From positions 1,719,977 through 1,783,976 of the forward strand of contig NZ_JAFMSY010000001.1 in the NCBI RefSeq assembly GCF_017916455.1: a stretch of 64,000 nt of DNA, read 5' to 3'. Every line of letters starts with the position of its first letter. The stretch's first letter is position 1. This stretch comes from Nocardioides xinjiangensis. Its GTDB lineage: Bacteria; Actinomycetota; Actinomycetes; Propionibacteriales; Nocardioidaceae. Positions 40,458 through 61,594 of this stretch are shown here, piece after piece. Made by a program: the position numbers and the translations under genes. The notes beneath the pieces are model-generated. The model was given only the letters and a program-made list of their open reading frames with translations, had not been told where the DNA came from and searched no databases.

Positions 40458-41996
40458 ATGAGTTCACAGCTTGTGGACAACTCTGTGGACTCGGTGGGCA
40501 GGCGCCAGCCGCGACCTGGGCCCAGACAACTCACGGTGGAAGCGAAGGCGGGTCCGGTGGACGACCAGGTAGATCTCGGAACGGTGTGGCAGCAGATCGT
40601 CGCGGACCTCCAACCCAACCAGCGCGCGTGGCTGCGCCCCAGCGTGCCGATGACGCTGCACGAGAACACCGCGATCATCGCCGTCCCCAACGACTTCACC
40701 CGCAACCAGCTCGAGGGCCGCCTGCGCAGCCATATCGAGGACGCGCTCACCGAGCGCTTCGGCCGGGAGATCCGGATGCTGGTGACCGTCAACCCCGCCC
40801 TCGAGGACGCGGAGCCCGCGCACGCGGCCGTCGACGAATCGCCAGATCGATCTGTCGGTATGTCGACAATGGAGCCGAGCTACGAGCCCGCCGCGCCGAT
40901 GGCGGCCGAGCAGCACGAGCCGTCCGCGACCGCCACCGAGCGTCGCCCGTCGGCGCTCGAAACCCGGCTGAACCCCAAGTACACCTTCGAGACCTTCGTC
41001 ATCGGCTCCTCGAACCGCTTCCCGCACGCGGCGGCGGTGGCGGTGGCCGAGGCGCCCGGCAAGGCCTACAACCCGCTCCTGGTCTACGGGGAGTCCGGGC
41101 TGGGCAAGACCCACCTGCTGCACGCGATCGGCCACTACGTCCGCAGCCTCTACAGCAACGCCAAGGTCCGCTACGTCTCGAGCGAGGAGTTCACCAACGA
41201 GTTCATCAACGCCATCCGTGACGACCGTCAGGACCGGTTCAAGCGGCGCTACCGCGACGTCGACGTCCTGCTCATCGACGACATCCAGTTCCTCGAGGGC
41301 AAGACCCAGACGCAGGAGGAGTTCTTCCACACCTTCAACACGCTCCACAACGCGAACAAGCAGATCGTCCTGACCTCCGACCGGGCGCCGAAGCGGCTCG
41401 AGGCCCTCGAGGACCGGTTGCGCAACCGCTTCGAGTGGGGGTTGATCACCGACGTCCAGCCGCCTGACCTCGAGACCCGCATCGCGATCCTGCGCAAGAA
41501 GGCGGCAATGGACCGCCTCACCGCGCCGCCGGACGTCCTGGAGTTCATCGCCTCGAAGATCCAGACCAACATCCGCGAGCTCGAGGGGGCCCTCATCCGG
41601 GTGACGGCCTTTGCGAACCTCAACCGCCAGGAGGTCGACATGACCCTGGCCGAGATCGTGCTCAAGGACCTGATCCCCGAGGGCGGCGAGCCGGAGATCA
41701 CGCACGCACTGATCATCGCGCAGACCGCGGCCTACTTCGGCGTCTCCCTCGAGGACCTCACCGGTCCCTCGCGCGGCCGGCACCTCGTCATGGCCCGGCA
41801 GATCGGCATGTACCTCTGCCGCGAGCTCACCTCGATGTCGCTCCCGCAGATCGGCCGCGAGTTCGGCGGCCGCGACCACACCACGGTGATGTACGCCGAC
41901 CGCAAGATCCGCCAGCTGCTCGCCGAGCGCCGCGCGGTGTTCAACCAGGTCAGCGAGCTCACCAACCGCGTGAAGATGCAGGCACGCCAGGGCTGA
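40458..41996 (+). CDS. dnaA: chromosomal replication initiator DnaA
   Basis: AAA+ initiator that melts oriC. 512 residues from ATG 40458. Domain I around [22 protein letters not shown] (about 37-120), a disordered domain II (about 125-170), the AAA+ domain with [17 protein letters not shown] (Walker A about 210) and [15 protein letters not shown] (Walker B), and domain IV with [19 protein letters not shown] and [15 protein letters not shown], the DnaA-box-binding signature. The start is uncertain: GTG at 40539 or 40557 would begin nearer domain I and leave the two DnaA boxes at 40472-40492 in the untranslated region. Confidence 0.97.
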
Positions 41997-42446
41997 CCCG
42001 TCCCGCACGGACCGGACGGACCCGACGGACCGGACCGGACGGCTCCCGGGGCGTCCGGCGAGGTGCCGCGTGTGGAGAAGTTGTGATGCGCCCCGACGTG
42101 TCGTCCCCAGACCCTGTGGACACCGGGGGACGAACCACACGACGGCGGCGCCCGTCCACACGGGCCGCAGGTCCGGCGAAGCGCGTCCACATCCGTCGTC
42201 CACAGGGCGCCACCGCCCTGACCTGCGCAGATCGTGGCCGTCCACAGTTTCCACGGACCCTATGACGACTGTGAACCTCAAGACTGGTCCCATCTCCCAC
42301 GAACACCGGACCGACCTCCCTCTGGGGAGAACCGTGCCGCCGGCGCGACGGCGCGTGGCAGGATGCACTTCCCACGTGCACGCGTGTGGTTCCCGCCTGC
42401 GTGCAGCCGCTCGTTGCCCGCACCACCTCTCGTCGAGGAGATCCCC
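41997..42446. other. oriC: origin of replication oriC (dnaA-dnaN intergenic region)
   Basis: 450 bp without a gene between dnaA and dnaN, the standard oriC place in Actinobacteria. DnaA-box-like 9-mers (consensus TTGTCCACA or TTATCCACA): TGTGGAGAA 42071-42079, TGTGGACAC 42115-42123, CCGTCCACA 42152-42160, GCGTCCACA 42183-42191, TCGTCCACA 42196-42204, CCGTCCACA 42238-42246, and a weak GTTTCCACG 42247-42255. Boxes occur in both orientations. A relatively AT-rich stretch (about 42240-42290) beside the last boxes is the best candidate unwinding element. The region ends with the GAGGAG ribosome site of dnaN. Confidence 0.88.
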
Positions 42447-43583
42447 GTGAAGTTCCGCGTCGAACGCGACGTCTTCGCCGATGCCGTCGCCTGGGCTGCC
42501 CGCAGCCTGCCGGTCCGTCCCAGCTCGCCGGTGCTCGCCGGCCTGCTGATCGAGGCGAGCGACGCCGGCCTGGTGCTCTCCACCTTCGACTACGAGACGT
42601 CGGCGCGCGCCACCCTCTCCGCGGAGGTCAACGACGAGGGCCGGGCGCTCGTCAGCGGCCGCCTCCTGGCCGACATCTGCCGCAGCCTGCCGGCCAAGCC
42701 CGTCGAGCTGACGCTCGAGGGCCCGCGCGTCTCGCTGACCTGCGGCTCGGCACGCTTCAGCCTCCAGACGATGCCGGTCGAGGACTACCCGACCCTGCCG
42801 GAGATGCCGTCGGCCACCGGCACCGTGTCCAGCGCCGACTTCGCGCACGCGGTCGCCCAGGCGGTCACCGCCGCGGGCCGCGACGACATGCTCCCCGTGC
42901 TCACCGGCGTCAGGATCGAGATCGACGGCTCGACCATGGCGCTGCTGGCCACCGACCGCTTCCGGCTCTCGCACCGTGAGCTGACCTGGAACCCCCAGTC
43001 CCCCGACGAGTCCGTCGCCGCCCTCGTCCCGGCCAAGGTGCTCGGCGACACCGCCAAGTCCCTCACCTCCGGCGCGGAGGTCACGATCGCGCTGAGCGCG
43101 AGCGGTGCCGGCGAGGGCCTGATTGGCTTCGAGGGCACCGGCCTGGGCGGCGTACGCCGCACCACCACCCGGCTGCTCGACGGCGAGTTCCCCAAGGTCC
43201 GCTCGCTCTTCCCGGCCGAGCACCTCACGGTCGCGAAGGTCAACAAGGCCGAGCTCATCGAGACCGTCAAGCGCGTCGCGCTCGTGGCCGAGCGCAACAC
43301 GGCGGTGCAGATGAAGTTCGCCGACAACCAGATCGTGCTCGACGCCGGCTCGGGCGACGAGGCCATGGCCACCGAGGCGGTCGACGCCGACATCACCGGC
43401 GACGACCTCACGACCGGCTTCAACCCCCAGTTCCTGCTCGACGGGCTGACCGCCATCGACGGCGAGCACGTCGACCTCGCCTTCACCCAGGCGACCAAGC
43501 CGGTCGTCATCTCGGGCACCGACGCCGACGACGACACCAGCTCCTTCCGCTACCTGCTGATGCCTCGGCGACTGCTCAGCTGA
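42447..43583 (+). CDS. dnaN: DNA polymerase III beta subunit (sliding clamp)
   Basis: Ring-shaped processivity clamp of the replicative polymerase. 378 residues in three similar domains; MKFRVERDVFADAVAWAARSLPVRPSSPVLAGLLIE at the start, LPVLTGVRIEIDGSTMALLATDRFRLSHREL in the middle, and the C-terminal FRYLLMPRRLLS typical of actinobacterial clamps (PVRL/MPxR end). GTG at 42447 with GAGGAG upstream. Confidence 0.97.
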   Translation: MKFRVERDVFADAVAWAARSLPVRPSSPVLAGLLIEASDAGLVLSTFDYETSARATLSAEVNDEGRALVSGRLLADICRSLPAKPVELTLEGPRVSLTCGSARFSLQTMPVEDYPTLPEMPSATGTVSSADFAHAVAQAVTAAGRDDMLPVLTGVRIEIDGSTMALLATDRFRLSHRELTWNPQSPDESVAALVPAKVLGDTAKSLTSGAEVTIALSASGAGEGLIGFEGTGLGGVRRTTTRLLDGEFPKVRSLFPAEHLTVAKVNKAELIETVKRVALVAERNTAVQMKFADNQIVLDAGSGDEAMATEAVDADITGDDLTTGFNPQFLLDGLTAIDGEHVDLAFTQATKPVVISGTDADDDTSSFRYLLMPRRLLS

Positions 43584-59593: not shown

Positions 59594-60559
59594 ATGACCC
59601 AGCCGCCCGAGGGGCCGACTGCGGACACGACCGCGGCCGGGGTGCCGACCTGCTACCGGCACCCCGACCGCGAGACGTGGATCCGCTGCCAGCGTTGCGA
59701 CCGTCCCATCTGCCCCGACTGCATGCGCGACGCCGCTGTCGGGTTCCAGTGCCCCGACTGCGTCAAGCAGGCCAACAAGGGCTCGCGCCAGAACCGCGCG
59801 ATGTACGGCGGCGAGCGCAGCGCCGACCCGCGGCTGACGTCGTACGTCCTGATCGCCCTGAACGCGCTGGTGTGGCTGGCGATCACCGCGACGGGCGGCC
59901 GCCTGTCGCGCGTCGTGGAGCTGCTGGCGCTGGCCCCGACCGGGCTCTGCGGGTCGGCGTCCACGCCCAACCAGTACTACCCGGCCATCACGGATTCCCG
60001 GATCTGCGAGACCTTCACCTCCGGTGACGGGGTGTGGCGTGCCGGTGTCGCCGACGGCGCCTGGTGGCAGCTGGTCACCAGTGCCTTCACCCACGTCGAG
60101 ATCTGGCACGTCGTGATGAACATGTTCGCGCTGTTCGTCTTCGGGCCGGCCCTCGAGGGCATCCTCGGGCGCGCGCGCTTCCTCGCGGTGTACCTCATCG
60201 GCGCACTGGGCTCGTCGGTGCTGGTCCTCTACCTCGCCGACGCCGACTCCAGCACGGTGGGCGCGTCCGGTGCCCTCTTCGCCCTGCTCGGCGCGCTGCT
60301 CGTCACGGCCCGCAAGGCCCGGCTCAACTCCCAGTGGCTCGTGCAGAACCTCGTGCTCGGCGTCGTGATCACGGTCGTGGGCTGGCGGATGATCTCCTGG
60401 CAGGGACACCTCGGCGGCTTCCTCGCCGGAGTGGCTGCCGCCGCCGTCATCGCGTACGCCCCGAAGTCGCGCCGCTCCCTCGTCCAGTGGGCGGGGCTGG
60501 GCGCGCTCGCCGTCGTGCTGCTCGTGCTGGCCGTGGTGCGCGCCGGCGCGCTGTCCTGA
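59594..60559 (+). CDS. rhomboid family intramembrane serine protease
   Basis: 321 residues. A zinc-finger-like N-terminus (CYRHPDRETWIRCQRCDRPICPDCM and FQCPDCVKQ, about 20-60) precedes the rhomboid fold: WWQLVTSAFTHVEIWHVVMNMFALFVFGPALEGILGRARFLAVYL, catalytic Ser in STVGASGALFALLGALL, catalytic His in WQGHLGGFLAGVAAAAV. About seven helices. Rv0110-type actinobacterial rhomboids have this same Cys-rich head. It follows ppiA by 74 nt of mostly repeat DNA and lacks a visible Shine-Dalgarno sequence. Confidence 0.93.
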   Translation: MTQPPEGPTADTTAAGVPTCYRHPDRETWIRCQRCDRPICPDCMRDAAVGFQCPDCVKQANKGSRQNRAMYGGERSADPRLTSYVLIALNALVWLAITATGGRLSRVVELLALAPTGLCGSASTPNQYYPAITDSRICETFTSGDGVWRAGVADGAWWQLVTSAFTHVEIWHVVMNMFALFVFGPALEGILGRARFLAVYLIGALGSSVLVLYLADADSSTVGASGALFALLGALLVTARKARLNSQWLVQNLVLGVVITVVGWRMISWQGHLGGFLAGVAAAAVIAYAPKSRRSLVQWAGLGALAVVLLVLAVVRAGALS

Positions 60560-60709
60560 CGCCGGGTCCCGCTGCGCGGCTCGACCCGGCGCCCCGCCCA
60601 TTTTCTGCCCGGCCGGCGTCATACGAACCGGCACATATGGGTACGCCTTCGTCTGACGCCGGCAGCACCGGCCGCGTCGGCCCAGGAAACCCACAGGTGT
60701 GCACATTGC

Positions 60710-60764
60710 TGTGGACAACTACACCGGTGTAATTCTCCACAACGGTTTTCCACAGTGTGGAGAA
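60710..60764. other. cluster of four DnaA-box-like sites
   Basis: TGTGGACAA (60710-60718; exact complement of TTGTCCACA), TTCTCCACA (60733-60741), TTTTCCACA (60746-60754) and TGTGGAGAA (60756-60764), the last three each one mismatch from TTGTCCACA or TTATCCACA. Between the first two sits the perfect palindrome TACACCGGTGTA (60720-60731). Locally AT-rich for this genome. Confidence 0.7.
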
Positions 60765-60947
60765 CCGAGCGGACGTTCGATCCGCTGACCGGCGGCCCTC
60801 CTAGCGCCCGACATGCGGCTAACCGGCGCCAGCTCCGCGTCCTGGGTGGTCATGTGCCGGCGCGAGGCGGCCGGCGGCGTCGGGCGCGCCGGGGCGGCGT
60901 ACGACCTCTGCCGCGCCGAAGGCCCCGCGCCCCGGGCCGGACTTCCC

Positions 60948-61141: not shown

Positions 61142-61594
61142 CTACTCCCACTTGGTGGCGAAGCTGAACCCCACCGCCATGAAGGCGATGCCGACGACGA
61201 GGTTCCACTGGCCGAGGTCGTTGAGGACCCACAGGCTCGAGAGGTCGTCGGAGAAGACGTAGAACGTGCAGATCCACAGCAGGCCGATGAGGAAGCACGC
61301 CAGCATGCCCGCCACGACGCCGCGGCCGCGGCCGAGCGGGGTGGAGCGGTGCGCGGAGACGACGAGGCCGAGCATGAGCAGGCCGAAGCCGATGACGTAG
61401 TTCCACCGGCCCAGGTCGGCCACGGCCTTGGGGCTGCCGGCGACCGGGGGGACCGCCGTCGGGTTGCCGCGGCCCTGGACGTAGTAGAAGACAATCCAGG
61501 CGATGCCGGCGACGATCAGCAGCAGGGCGATCAGGAACCTGGCGGTGAAGAGCGAGGTCTTCTCCTCGGTGGCGATCGTCTTGAACTTGGACAC
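61142..61594 (-). CDS. crgA: CrgA-like cell division protein, duplicated
   Basis: CrgA is a small two-helix membrane protein that recruits septal peptidoglycan factors in Actinobacteria. Family members have about 84-95 residues and two helices; this one has 150 residues and four helices. Residues about 14-80 (FLIALLLIVAGIAWIVFYYV ... LGRWNYVIGFGLLMLGLVVS) and about 88-150 (GMLACFLIGLLWICTFYVF ... LGQWNLVVGIAFMAVGFSFATKW) are two copies of the same unit, each with helix, G-x-WN, helix; the second keeps the canonical end FATKW. GTG at 61594 has AGGAG upstream. Position next to DUF881 and near pknB is conserved. Confidence 0.88.
   Translation of the reverse strand: MSKFKTIATEEKTSLFTARFLIALLLIVAGIAWIVFYYVQGRGNPTAVPPVAGSPKAVADLGRWNYVIGFGLLMLGLVVSAHRSTPLGRGRGVVAGMLACFLIGLLWICTFYVFSDDLSSLWVLNDLGQWNLVVGIAFMAVGFSFATKWE

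Follow-up and report, generated by a model that had tools for sequence, protein, structure and literature searches.

A palindrome-associated cluster of DnaA boxes in the rhomboid-crgA spacer of Nocardioides xinjiangensis is conserved among Actinomycetota and may be a DnaA-control locus

Introduction

Why should a dense group of DnaA-box-like sites lie between two convergent genes, away from the presumed origin of replication? The question is raised by a stretch of 64,000 nucleotides of the Nocardioides xinjiangensis genome (hereafter the window, i.e., the whole stretch of DNA that was analysed), for which the initial annotation suggested DnaA titration, DnaA reactivation or a regulatory target. 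To our knowledge, the control that limits initiation to once per cycle in actinobacteria, Streptomyces and mycobacteria among them, remains largely open. In the literature searched, judged on titles and among the matches listed, we found no crgA-linked or actinobacteria-wide DnaA-box locus, nor did the matches listed include a locus of the datA or DARS type common to different actinobacteria. The papers found there that name both crgA and the DnaA box do not connect them in the portions available.

Results

Layout of the element

The features of the window relevant to this work are the following:
41997 to 42447 (right end approximate): dnaA-dnaN spacer, presumed oriC (dnaA TIGR00362, dnaN TIGR00663)
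59594 to 60559, plus strand: rhomboid protease gene, convergent neighbour (PF01694, E 1.2e-32)
60691 to 60766: whole element, DnaA boxes flanking a palindrome, matched by profile R1
60698 to 60705: TGTGCACA, degenerate box-like palindrome, weak, its assignment being an inference
60710 to 60718, minus strand: DnaA box, exact TTGTCCACA
60720 to 60731: palindrome TACACCGGTGTA, adjacent to a box
60733 to 60741, plus strand: DnaA box TTCTCCACA, one mismatch, first core box (+0)
60746 to 60754, plus strand: DnaA box TTTTCCACA, one mismatch, middle core box (+13)
60756 to 60764, minus strand: DnaA box TTCTCCACA (read on the minus strand), one mismatch, last core box (-23)
61142 to 61594, minus strand: crgA, convergent neighbour (PF06781, E 4.2e-26; start codon inferred, 5' end approximate)

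The initial annotation had described four DnaA-box-like 9-mers within 55 bp, on both strands and around a palindrome, in a non-coding AT-rich patch about 18 kb from oriC, with a higher density than most of the dnaA-dnaN spacer. All of this stands. Indeed, one box is exact and three carry one mismatch, the palindrome TACACCGGTGTA lies amid them, and the 55-bp cluster, inside the 582-bp spacer between the convergent rhomboid and crgA genes, has a G+C content of 47% against 68-77% in 2-kb windows of the sequence. The distance of about 18 kb to the presumed oriC agrees with the positions of dnaA and dnaN, and the dnaA-dnaN spacer contains three boxes with at most one mismatch in 449 bp, none of them exact. 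What the annotation missed is the conservation of the palindrome and of the box spacing. The site extends further than was first described, and its conservation is much stronger.

The element was also described with a sequence-only profile, R1, built from 42 elements including the one studied here. On the window, R1 matched positions 60721-60766 on the plus strand (44.0 bits, E 9.5e-13) and 60691-60735 on the minus strand (23.4 bits, E 2.8e-6); the only further matches up to E 10 (60691-60720 and 60743-60767) fall on the same element. The dnaA-dnaN spacer was not matched in this window search up to E 10, and the element, 18 kb away, does not have the location expected of oriC.

Rarity within the genome

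Boxes with at most one mismatch number 15 in the window versus 5.06 in shuffles, and 257 in the whole genome versus 219 for the reversed motif, so that single boxes are hardly enriched and can be taken as background. Clustering is a different matter. Under a Poisson model with 257 sites, about 1.4e-6 clusters of four boxes in 55 bp are expected, and the pattern TCCACA-N0-30-TCCACA-N0-30-TGTGGA occurs once in the 3.7-Mb genome, at the element (reversed control, 0). Cores diverging from one another across at most 30 bp were found at five places including the element (control, 0). Besides the element, a single place, upstream of dnaB, has facing cores no more than 30 bp apart, and the facing-pair pattern alone is not over-represented (three forward matches versus six for the reversed control). 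The pattern searches found no second cluster like the element in this genome. The genome-wide scan that had been proposed as a check thus agrees with the initial annotation, since clusters of such density are not common, and the general requirement for a non-oriC DnaA-box cluster, that several boxes lie closer together than chance allows and away from the dnaA-dnaN spacer, is satisfied.

Conservation in Nocardioides

We compared the spacer in 30 rhomboid loci of the genus, own genome included. At least one box was found downstream of the rhomboid gene in 29/30 loci and at least two in 26/30, the locus without any being L023; crgA was not found in three stretches (L014, L018, and L023), for which the whole available 3' flank was counted. 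Wherever both genes were found, they are convergent (27/27). The three-box core is present in 25 of the 30 loci.

The 23-bp and 13-bp steps between boxes are kept exactly in the six closest congeners (L002-L007). In these, the site corresponding to 60710-60718 reads TTATCCACA (L002-L004) or TTGTCCACA (L005-L007), and tgtgcacaca stands at the place of 60698-60705 (in L007, a close variant). Boxes flank the palindrome on both sides in L001-L007 and in several other Nocardioides loci, and TTG/TTA swaps occur at one site among the genus loci. According to the accessible part of the Kutzneria genome paper, TT(G/A)TCCACA is the classic box, and the Kutzneria oriC has none.

Exact boxes are more numerous in the crgA spacer than in dnaA-dnaN in all eight genus genomes, own included, in which both spacers were examined. 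The rhomboid gene lies 13.6-54.6 kb from dnaA (median 19.6 kb; 31 genus genomes, own included), which meets what we required of a datA-type location, a place doubled soon after initiation.

Conservation across the class and the phylum

CrgA (PF06781) was found in 254/256 genomes of the class, and we studied a sample of 122 crgA loci (17 + 25 + 80), the last 80 of which were picked for family spread, among the matches listed, before their flanks were seen. A 3' flank of 400 bp was available for 119/122 loci. The numbers of flanks with boxes were:
400 bp 3' of crgA (n=119): at least one box 109, at least two 92, at least three 48, exact 84
5' flanks of crgA (n=119): at least one box 9, at least two 2, at least three 0, exact 1
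stretch 400-800 bp 3' of crgA (n=118): at least one box 5, at least two 1, at least three 0, exact 1
reversed motif, 3' flanks (n=119): at least one 25, at least two 2, at least three 0, exact 2

Altogether, the 3' flanks hold 285 boxes versus a mean of 11.3 in resampled flanks. Within 500 bp 3' of crgA, some member of 29/32 families has a box, and two boxes are found in 27/32. No box was found in these 500 bp in families f5, f10, and f89 (four loci in all), in 4/12 loci of f77 and in 2/15 of f71; two of those four f77 loci (L083 and L136) still match R1 beside crgA.

The arrangement of the boxes is conserved as well. The core (+0, +12/13, -22 to -24), counted with up to four mismatches in total across its boxes, is present in 91/122 class loci from 27 families, and was absent from the stretches 400-800 bp away (0/118), from the 5' flanks (0/122) and from 10 resamples. 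A second count with a slightly shorter scan gave 81/122, and six other geometries were found in 0-5/122 loci. Furthermore, an ACA-N3-5-TGT motif abuts the core in 73/91 class and 24/25 genus loci, a count for which there was no separate control.

At E up to 0.001, R1 matches in 193/256 class genomes and does not in the other 63. Among the matches listed, 90 genomes had both a place for crgA and a best R1 match; in 84 of them the best genome-wide match lies 0-382 bp 3' of crgA, with a median of 55.5 bp. The same holds for 46/52 genomes not used to build the profile, though many of the 52 are related to genomes that were. Family f3, which belongs to the order of Nocardioides, is an exception: among the matches listed, R1 has none near the rhomboid gene in 8/8 genomes.

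In other classes of the phylum, R1 matches 3' of crgA in 6/12 loci (E 2.3e-12 to 1.1e-5), and weaker matches in others fall on either side of the gene. A strict composite pattern searched over 84,980 genomes returned 23 stretches, all from Actinomycetota judging by title and 15 of them from Nocardioides; this pattern is narrow, so that the figure is a minimum and is evidence of specificity rather than of range. The comparison of the spacer in relatives proposed in the initial annotation therefore shows a cluster conserved far beyond the genus. One locus from another class (L050) carries its boxes 5' rather than 3' of crgA, four of them lying within 1 kb.

The palindrome and its occurrence upstream of nrdR

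Many elements share one plan, a palindrome abutting the three-box core, and the palindrome consensus over the 42 elements is AATTACACCnGTGTAATT. Either end of the core may carry the palindrome: when the 125 elements scored are read from the palindrome side, the middle box falls on the plus strand in 56 and on the minus strand in 69, although a clear palindrome is missing from some of them. Families f6 and f71 keep the boxes, mostly without the palindrome.

In the genome studied, TACACNNNTGTA occurs at five places, and by eye a DnaA box abuts it only at the element and at a site upstream of nrdR (G000:C1:1145125-1145171, i.e., L201:2526-2572; 30.8-30.9 bits). At the other three (L252-L254), inspection by eye of 60 bp on either side revealed no abutting DnaA box, so that the palindrome may be an ordinary operator; it may have an independent regulator.

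The pair of palindrome and DnaA box recurs upstream of nrdR beyond this genome. Among the matches listed for R1, we chose 20 loci of this type, own included, and nrdR lies 93-151 bp downstream of the pair in 18 of them, the two without nrdR downstream being L217 and L218. In L201, a TIGR00244 match confirmed NrdR. Inspected by eye, this locus shows a pair of NrdR-box-like sites with a spacing of 31 bp; the palindrome falls inside the pair and the DnaA box overlaps the second site. This layout resembles the NrdR operators of nrdRJ promoters, for which the available text of the published work gives a spacing of 31 bp (PMC9110341) and a need for two boxes (PMC9110341, PMC12051234). The possibility that the palindrome itself is an NrdR box was rejected on comparison with the accessible parts of these sources (PMC9110341, PMC12051234); by eye, the NrdR-box-like sites of L201, 31 bp apart, flank it. 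The crgA element differs from such operators in that, by eye, it has no CTACATCTAG-like pair about 31 bp apart, and it does not qualify as an NrdR operator.

Among the sites of this genome without an abutting DnaA box are the palindromes GAACTACACGCTTGTAGTTC (L253, approximately 1495-1514) and ATTACACGTCTGTAGT (L254, approximately 1500-1515).

Discussion

A candidate DnaA-control locus

What has been observed is how the element is arranged, how rare it is in the genome, how well it is conserved and that it does not depend on the neighbouring genes. On these grounds we put forward, with somewhat less than even confidence, that it is a non-oriC DnaA-control locus working like datA or DARS together with an unidentified partner that binds the palindrome. 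DnaA binding, for which conserved box letters and spacing are the only evidence, and function are inferred, and so are the partner, the sign of the effect and its biochemistry. Three to four DnaA molecules would occupy boxes of fixed orientation and spacing, and the abutting palindrome would be bound by the partner protein or by extra DnaA on low-affinity sites. Such a complex could alter the activity or the nucleotide state of DnaA and thereby help to set the time at which oriC fires, acting through its specific assembly and not by soaking up DnaA. That the palindrome consists of plain DnaA boxes is not excluded on its letters: it fits TTRTCCACA poorly, yet it resembles box III of DARS2.

As to the sign of the effect, we lean slightly towards a negative, datA-like role, because in the genus about 14-55 kb separate the locus from dnaA, so that it is duplicated shortly after initiation. 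The core of three boxes, on the other hand, looks more like that of DARS. No protein of the genome passed the cut-off of the Hda model, a narrow one that is passed in 1/14 control genomes.

Several points weigh against a DnaA-control locus. There are no binding or mutant data, the facing gap differs from that of DARS, and R1 misses the E. coli loci. Moreover, f6 and f71 mostly lack the palindrome, f3, f5, f10, and f89 are exceptions, 63/256 genomes are unmatched, and three further copies of the palindrome in the genome have no DnaA box beside them.

Titration and datA

According to a simpler account, which we regard as unlikely while keeping it in play, the element is a plain titration site whose high-affinity boxes hold DnaA away from oriC, the site being doubled soon after initiation. 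It lies near oriC, and its boxes are closer to the consensus than those of dnaA-dnaN, as titration would have it; the boxes are few, though (one to six in the genus spacers having any), and neither their exact spacing nor the extra palindrome would be necessary. By inference, the combination of a few boxes in exact register with a palindrome favours a defined complex over titration.

The datA locus of E. coli lies about 0.47 Mb from oriC. As far as the available sources describe it, datA combines, like the element, intergenic DnaA boxes with a site for a second protein. In our scan, a triplet near datA reads (+0,+12,-24), with a weak first box, and the datA stretch has a facing pair 12 bp apart, as some elements do; which of the datA boxes these are is not established. 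The datA locus needs IHF and is defined by promoting DnaA-ATP hydrolysis, where the element has a second conserved site, the palindrome, with an unidentified ligand; datA is not matched by R1.

In the parts that could be consulted, non-oriC clusters of DnaA boxes analogous to datA are reported for S. coelicolor (PMC10950094, PMC5742627), and for Bacillus subtilis the source text at hand says that datA-like clusters repress untimely initiation. The element resembles the latter in being a chromosomal cluster of DnaA boxes. A difference from the Streptomyces clusters is that family f6, which may be Streptomycetaceae, has boxes in the crgA spacer mostly without the palindrome. Smulczyk-Krawczyszyn et al. 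in 2006 reportedly described the S. coelicolor clusters H69, H24, and D78, located near oriC, with deletion of D78 said to raise initiation. Since crgA presumably lies on the S. coelicolor cosmid H69, cluster H69 may be the same site as the crgA spacer element; if so, one member of the element has been seen before.

DnaA reactivation

The element could otherwise be a reactivation site of the DARS kind, where DnaA-ADP oligomers on the three boxes would release ADP and yield DnaA-ATP, a reading that we consider rather improbable. The likeness is real as far as the three boxes go, one opposed to a tandem pair, and it meets that part of the definition of DARS: the DARS1 and DARS2 cores of E. coli MG1655 scan as (+0,+12,-26), as does a further triplet about 0.3 kb from the DARS2 core, the actinobacterial one as (+0,+12/13,-22 to -24), so that the tandem pitch is 12 bp in the former and 12-13 bp here. 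A review, in the portion available, similarly describes box I as opposed to the two others, II and III, and the spacing as equal in DARS1 and DARS2. Furthermore, box III of DARS2, TCTTACACC, shares 7/9 letters with the palindrome half-site AATTACACC, and DARS2, according to partly accessible text, combines its core with sites for other proteins as the element combines core and palindrome, although nothing shows that the latter is an IHF or Fis site.

Against this, the facing pair is 14 bp apart in DARS and 10-12 bp apart in the element. The third box stands at -22 to -24, the DARS spacing (+0,+12,-26) is not met, and the geometry (12/13, 26-28) was found in only 2/122 loci. Because its facing gap is 2-4 bp shorter, we do not file the element as a DARS. 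DARS sites lie far from oriC, whereas the element is near it. The E. coli scan was moreover loose: over 8.2 kb it returned three triplets not assigned to a DARS core. Extra triplets such as these, one of them near datA, mean that geometry alone cannot decide between DARS and datA. R1 does not match the E. coli stretches around DARS1 or DARS2.

Action on the neighbouring genes

It is also conceivable, if quite unlikely, that the element serves crgA or the rhomboid gene in cis, as a DnaA road-block, an insulator or a terminator between convergent genes. Its steady place (median 55.5 bp 3' of crgA) and orientation (79 same versus 5 opposite) would suit such a role, and RNA of both strands folds better than shuffles (z -3.2 and -4.1). 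The scan of the element, which for promoters covered sigma-70-type sites only, found however no terminator-like or promoter-like site and no T-run after a GC stem, and no Rfam family reaches its gathering score. With one element per family, covariation between the box arms is absent (facing arms 6.84 versus 6.84; outer arms 6.90 versus 6.79); without family correction, the outer arms gave 7.10 versus at most 7.03 in 500 shuffles. An RNA hairpin or terminator was rejected on these grounds, i.e., no T-run, no Rfam family and no covariation with one element per family.

The element is also kept where these neighbours are not. At least two boxes are present in 71/83 loci with a convergent rhomboid gene and in 24/39 loci where rhomboid was not detected in the stretch examined, and six of the 90 genomes depart from the crgA-adjacent R1 match. 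G288 has its match at a distance of 1.6 kb, and in four small f77 genomes (G271, G297, G363, and G399; L221-L224) the element lies 9.3-10.4 kb from crgA; in L221 and L224, where the open reading frames were read, it stands between gyrB, confirmed by family search in L221, and a response-regulator gene. In G285 the match begins at the end of a rhomboid-like open reading frame (below the NCBIfam cut-off), with crgA far away on the same contig. An element kept away from crgA makes a crgA-specific function unlikely. Control of neighbouring promoters is likewise unlikely, since the spacer is convergent in 27/27 genus loci without a promoter-like site and the element persists away from crgA or without a detected rhomboid gene.

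Remaining alternatives

An accessory part of the origin, or an anchoring or segregation site joining DnaA at oriC to the element, seems very unlikely: the locus is near dnaA in 31 genus genomes, and contacts through DnaA domain I have been proposed, in the part of the study available, to join distant box clusters within the Streptomyces oriC (PMC13270200), but dnaA-dnaN has boxes of its own, unmatched by R1. A chance cluster or artefact, for which we found no supporting point, can be set aside given the unique triple pattern, the boxes 3' of crgA, the core counts and the positions of the best R1 matches, the counts elsewhere in the class (109/119 versus 9/119; 91/122 versus 0) in particular disfavouring chance.

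Reach of the DnaA-control reading

A wider form of the DnaA-control reading, which we offer as a possibility and with clear reservations, is that the element controls DnaA throughout the phylum Actinomycetota, is ancestral there and has so far not been described in this role, with a DARS-like core and a dedicated palindrome, and that the pair upstream of nrdR ties initiator activity to deoxynucleotide supply through a shared partner. Kept beside crgA in many actinobacteria, the arrangement is a strong candidate for a switch, hitherto overlooked, over the timing of chromosome copying, and it offers a possible link between initiation and the ribonucleotide reductase genes. In practice, an element of constant layout, about 55 bp long and found where one expects it, is a direct deletion target in many genera, and it can serve as bait for a palindrome-binding protein.

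Minor observations

Two exact DnaA boxes forming a perfect inverted pair, TTGTCCACAggctcTGTGGACAA (L196:3030-3052), stand in the same genome upstream of dnaB, the replicative helicase gene, on the opposite side of dnaA at about 50 kb. A further exact DnaA box, at 40472-40480 of the window, falls in the first codons of dnaA (codons 5-8, numbered from the inferred start at 40458) and is a possible autoregulatory site.

Within the rhomboid-crgA spacer, TCATACGAACCGGC at 60619-60632 is found again in the genome at L253:1452-1465, where it stands at the edge of a 63-bp tandem array of 6.8 copies (L253:1046-1472); it is possibly a dispersed repeat. Lastly, CrgA matches PF06781 twice within a single open frame (window 61148-61582), and 12/13 other genus genomes examined also show two matches, which suggests a duplicated domain.
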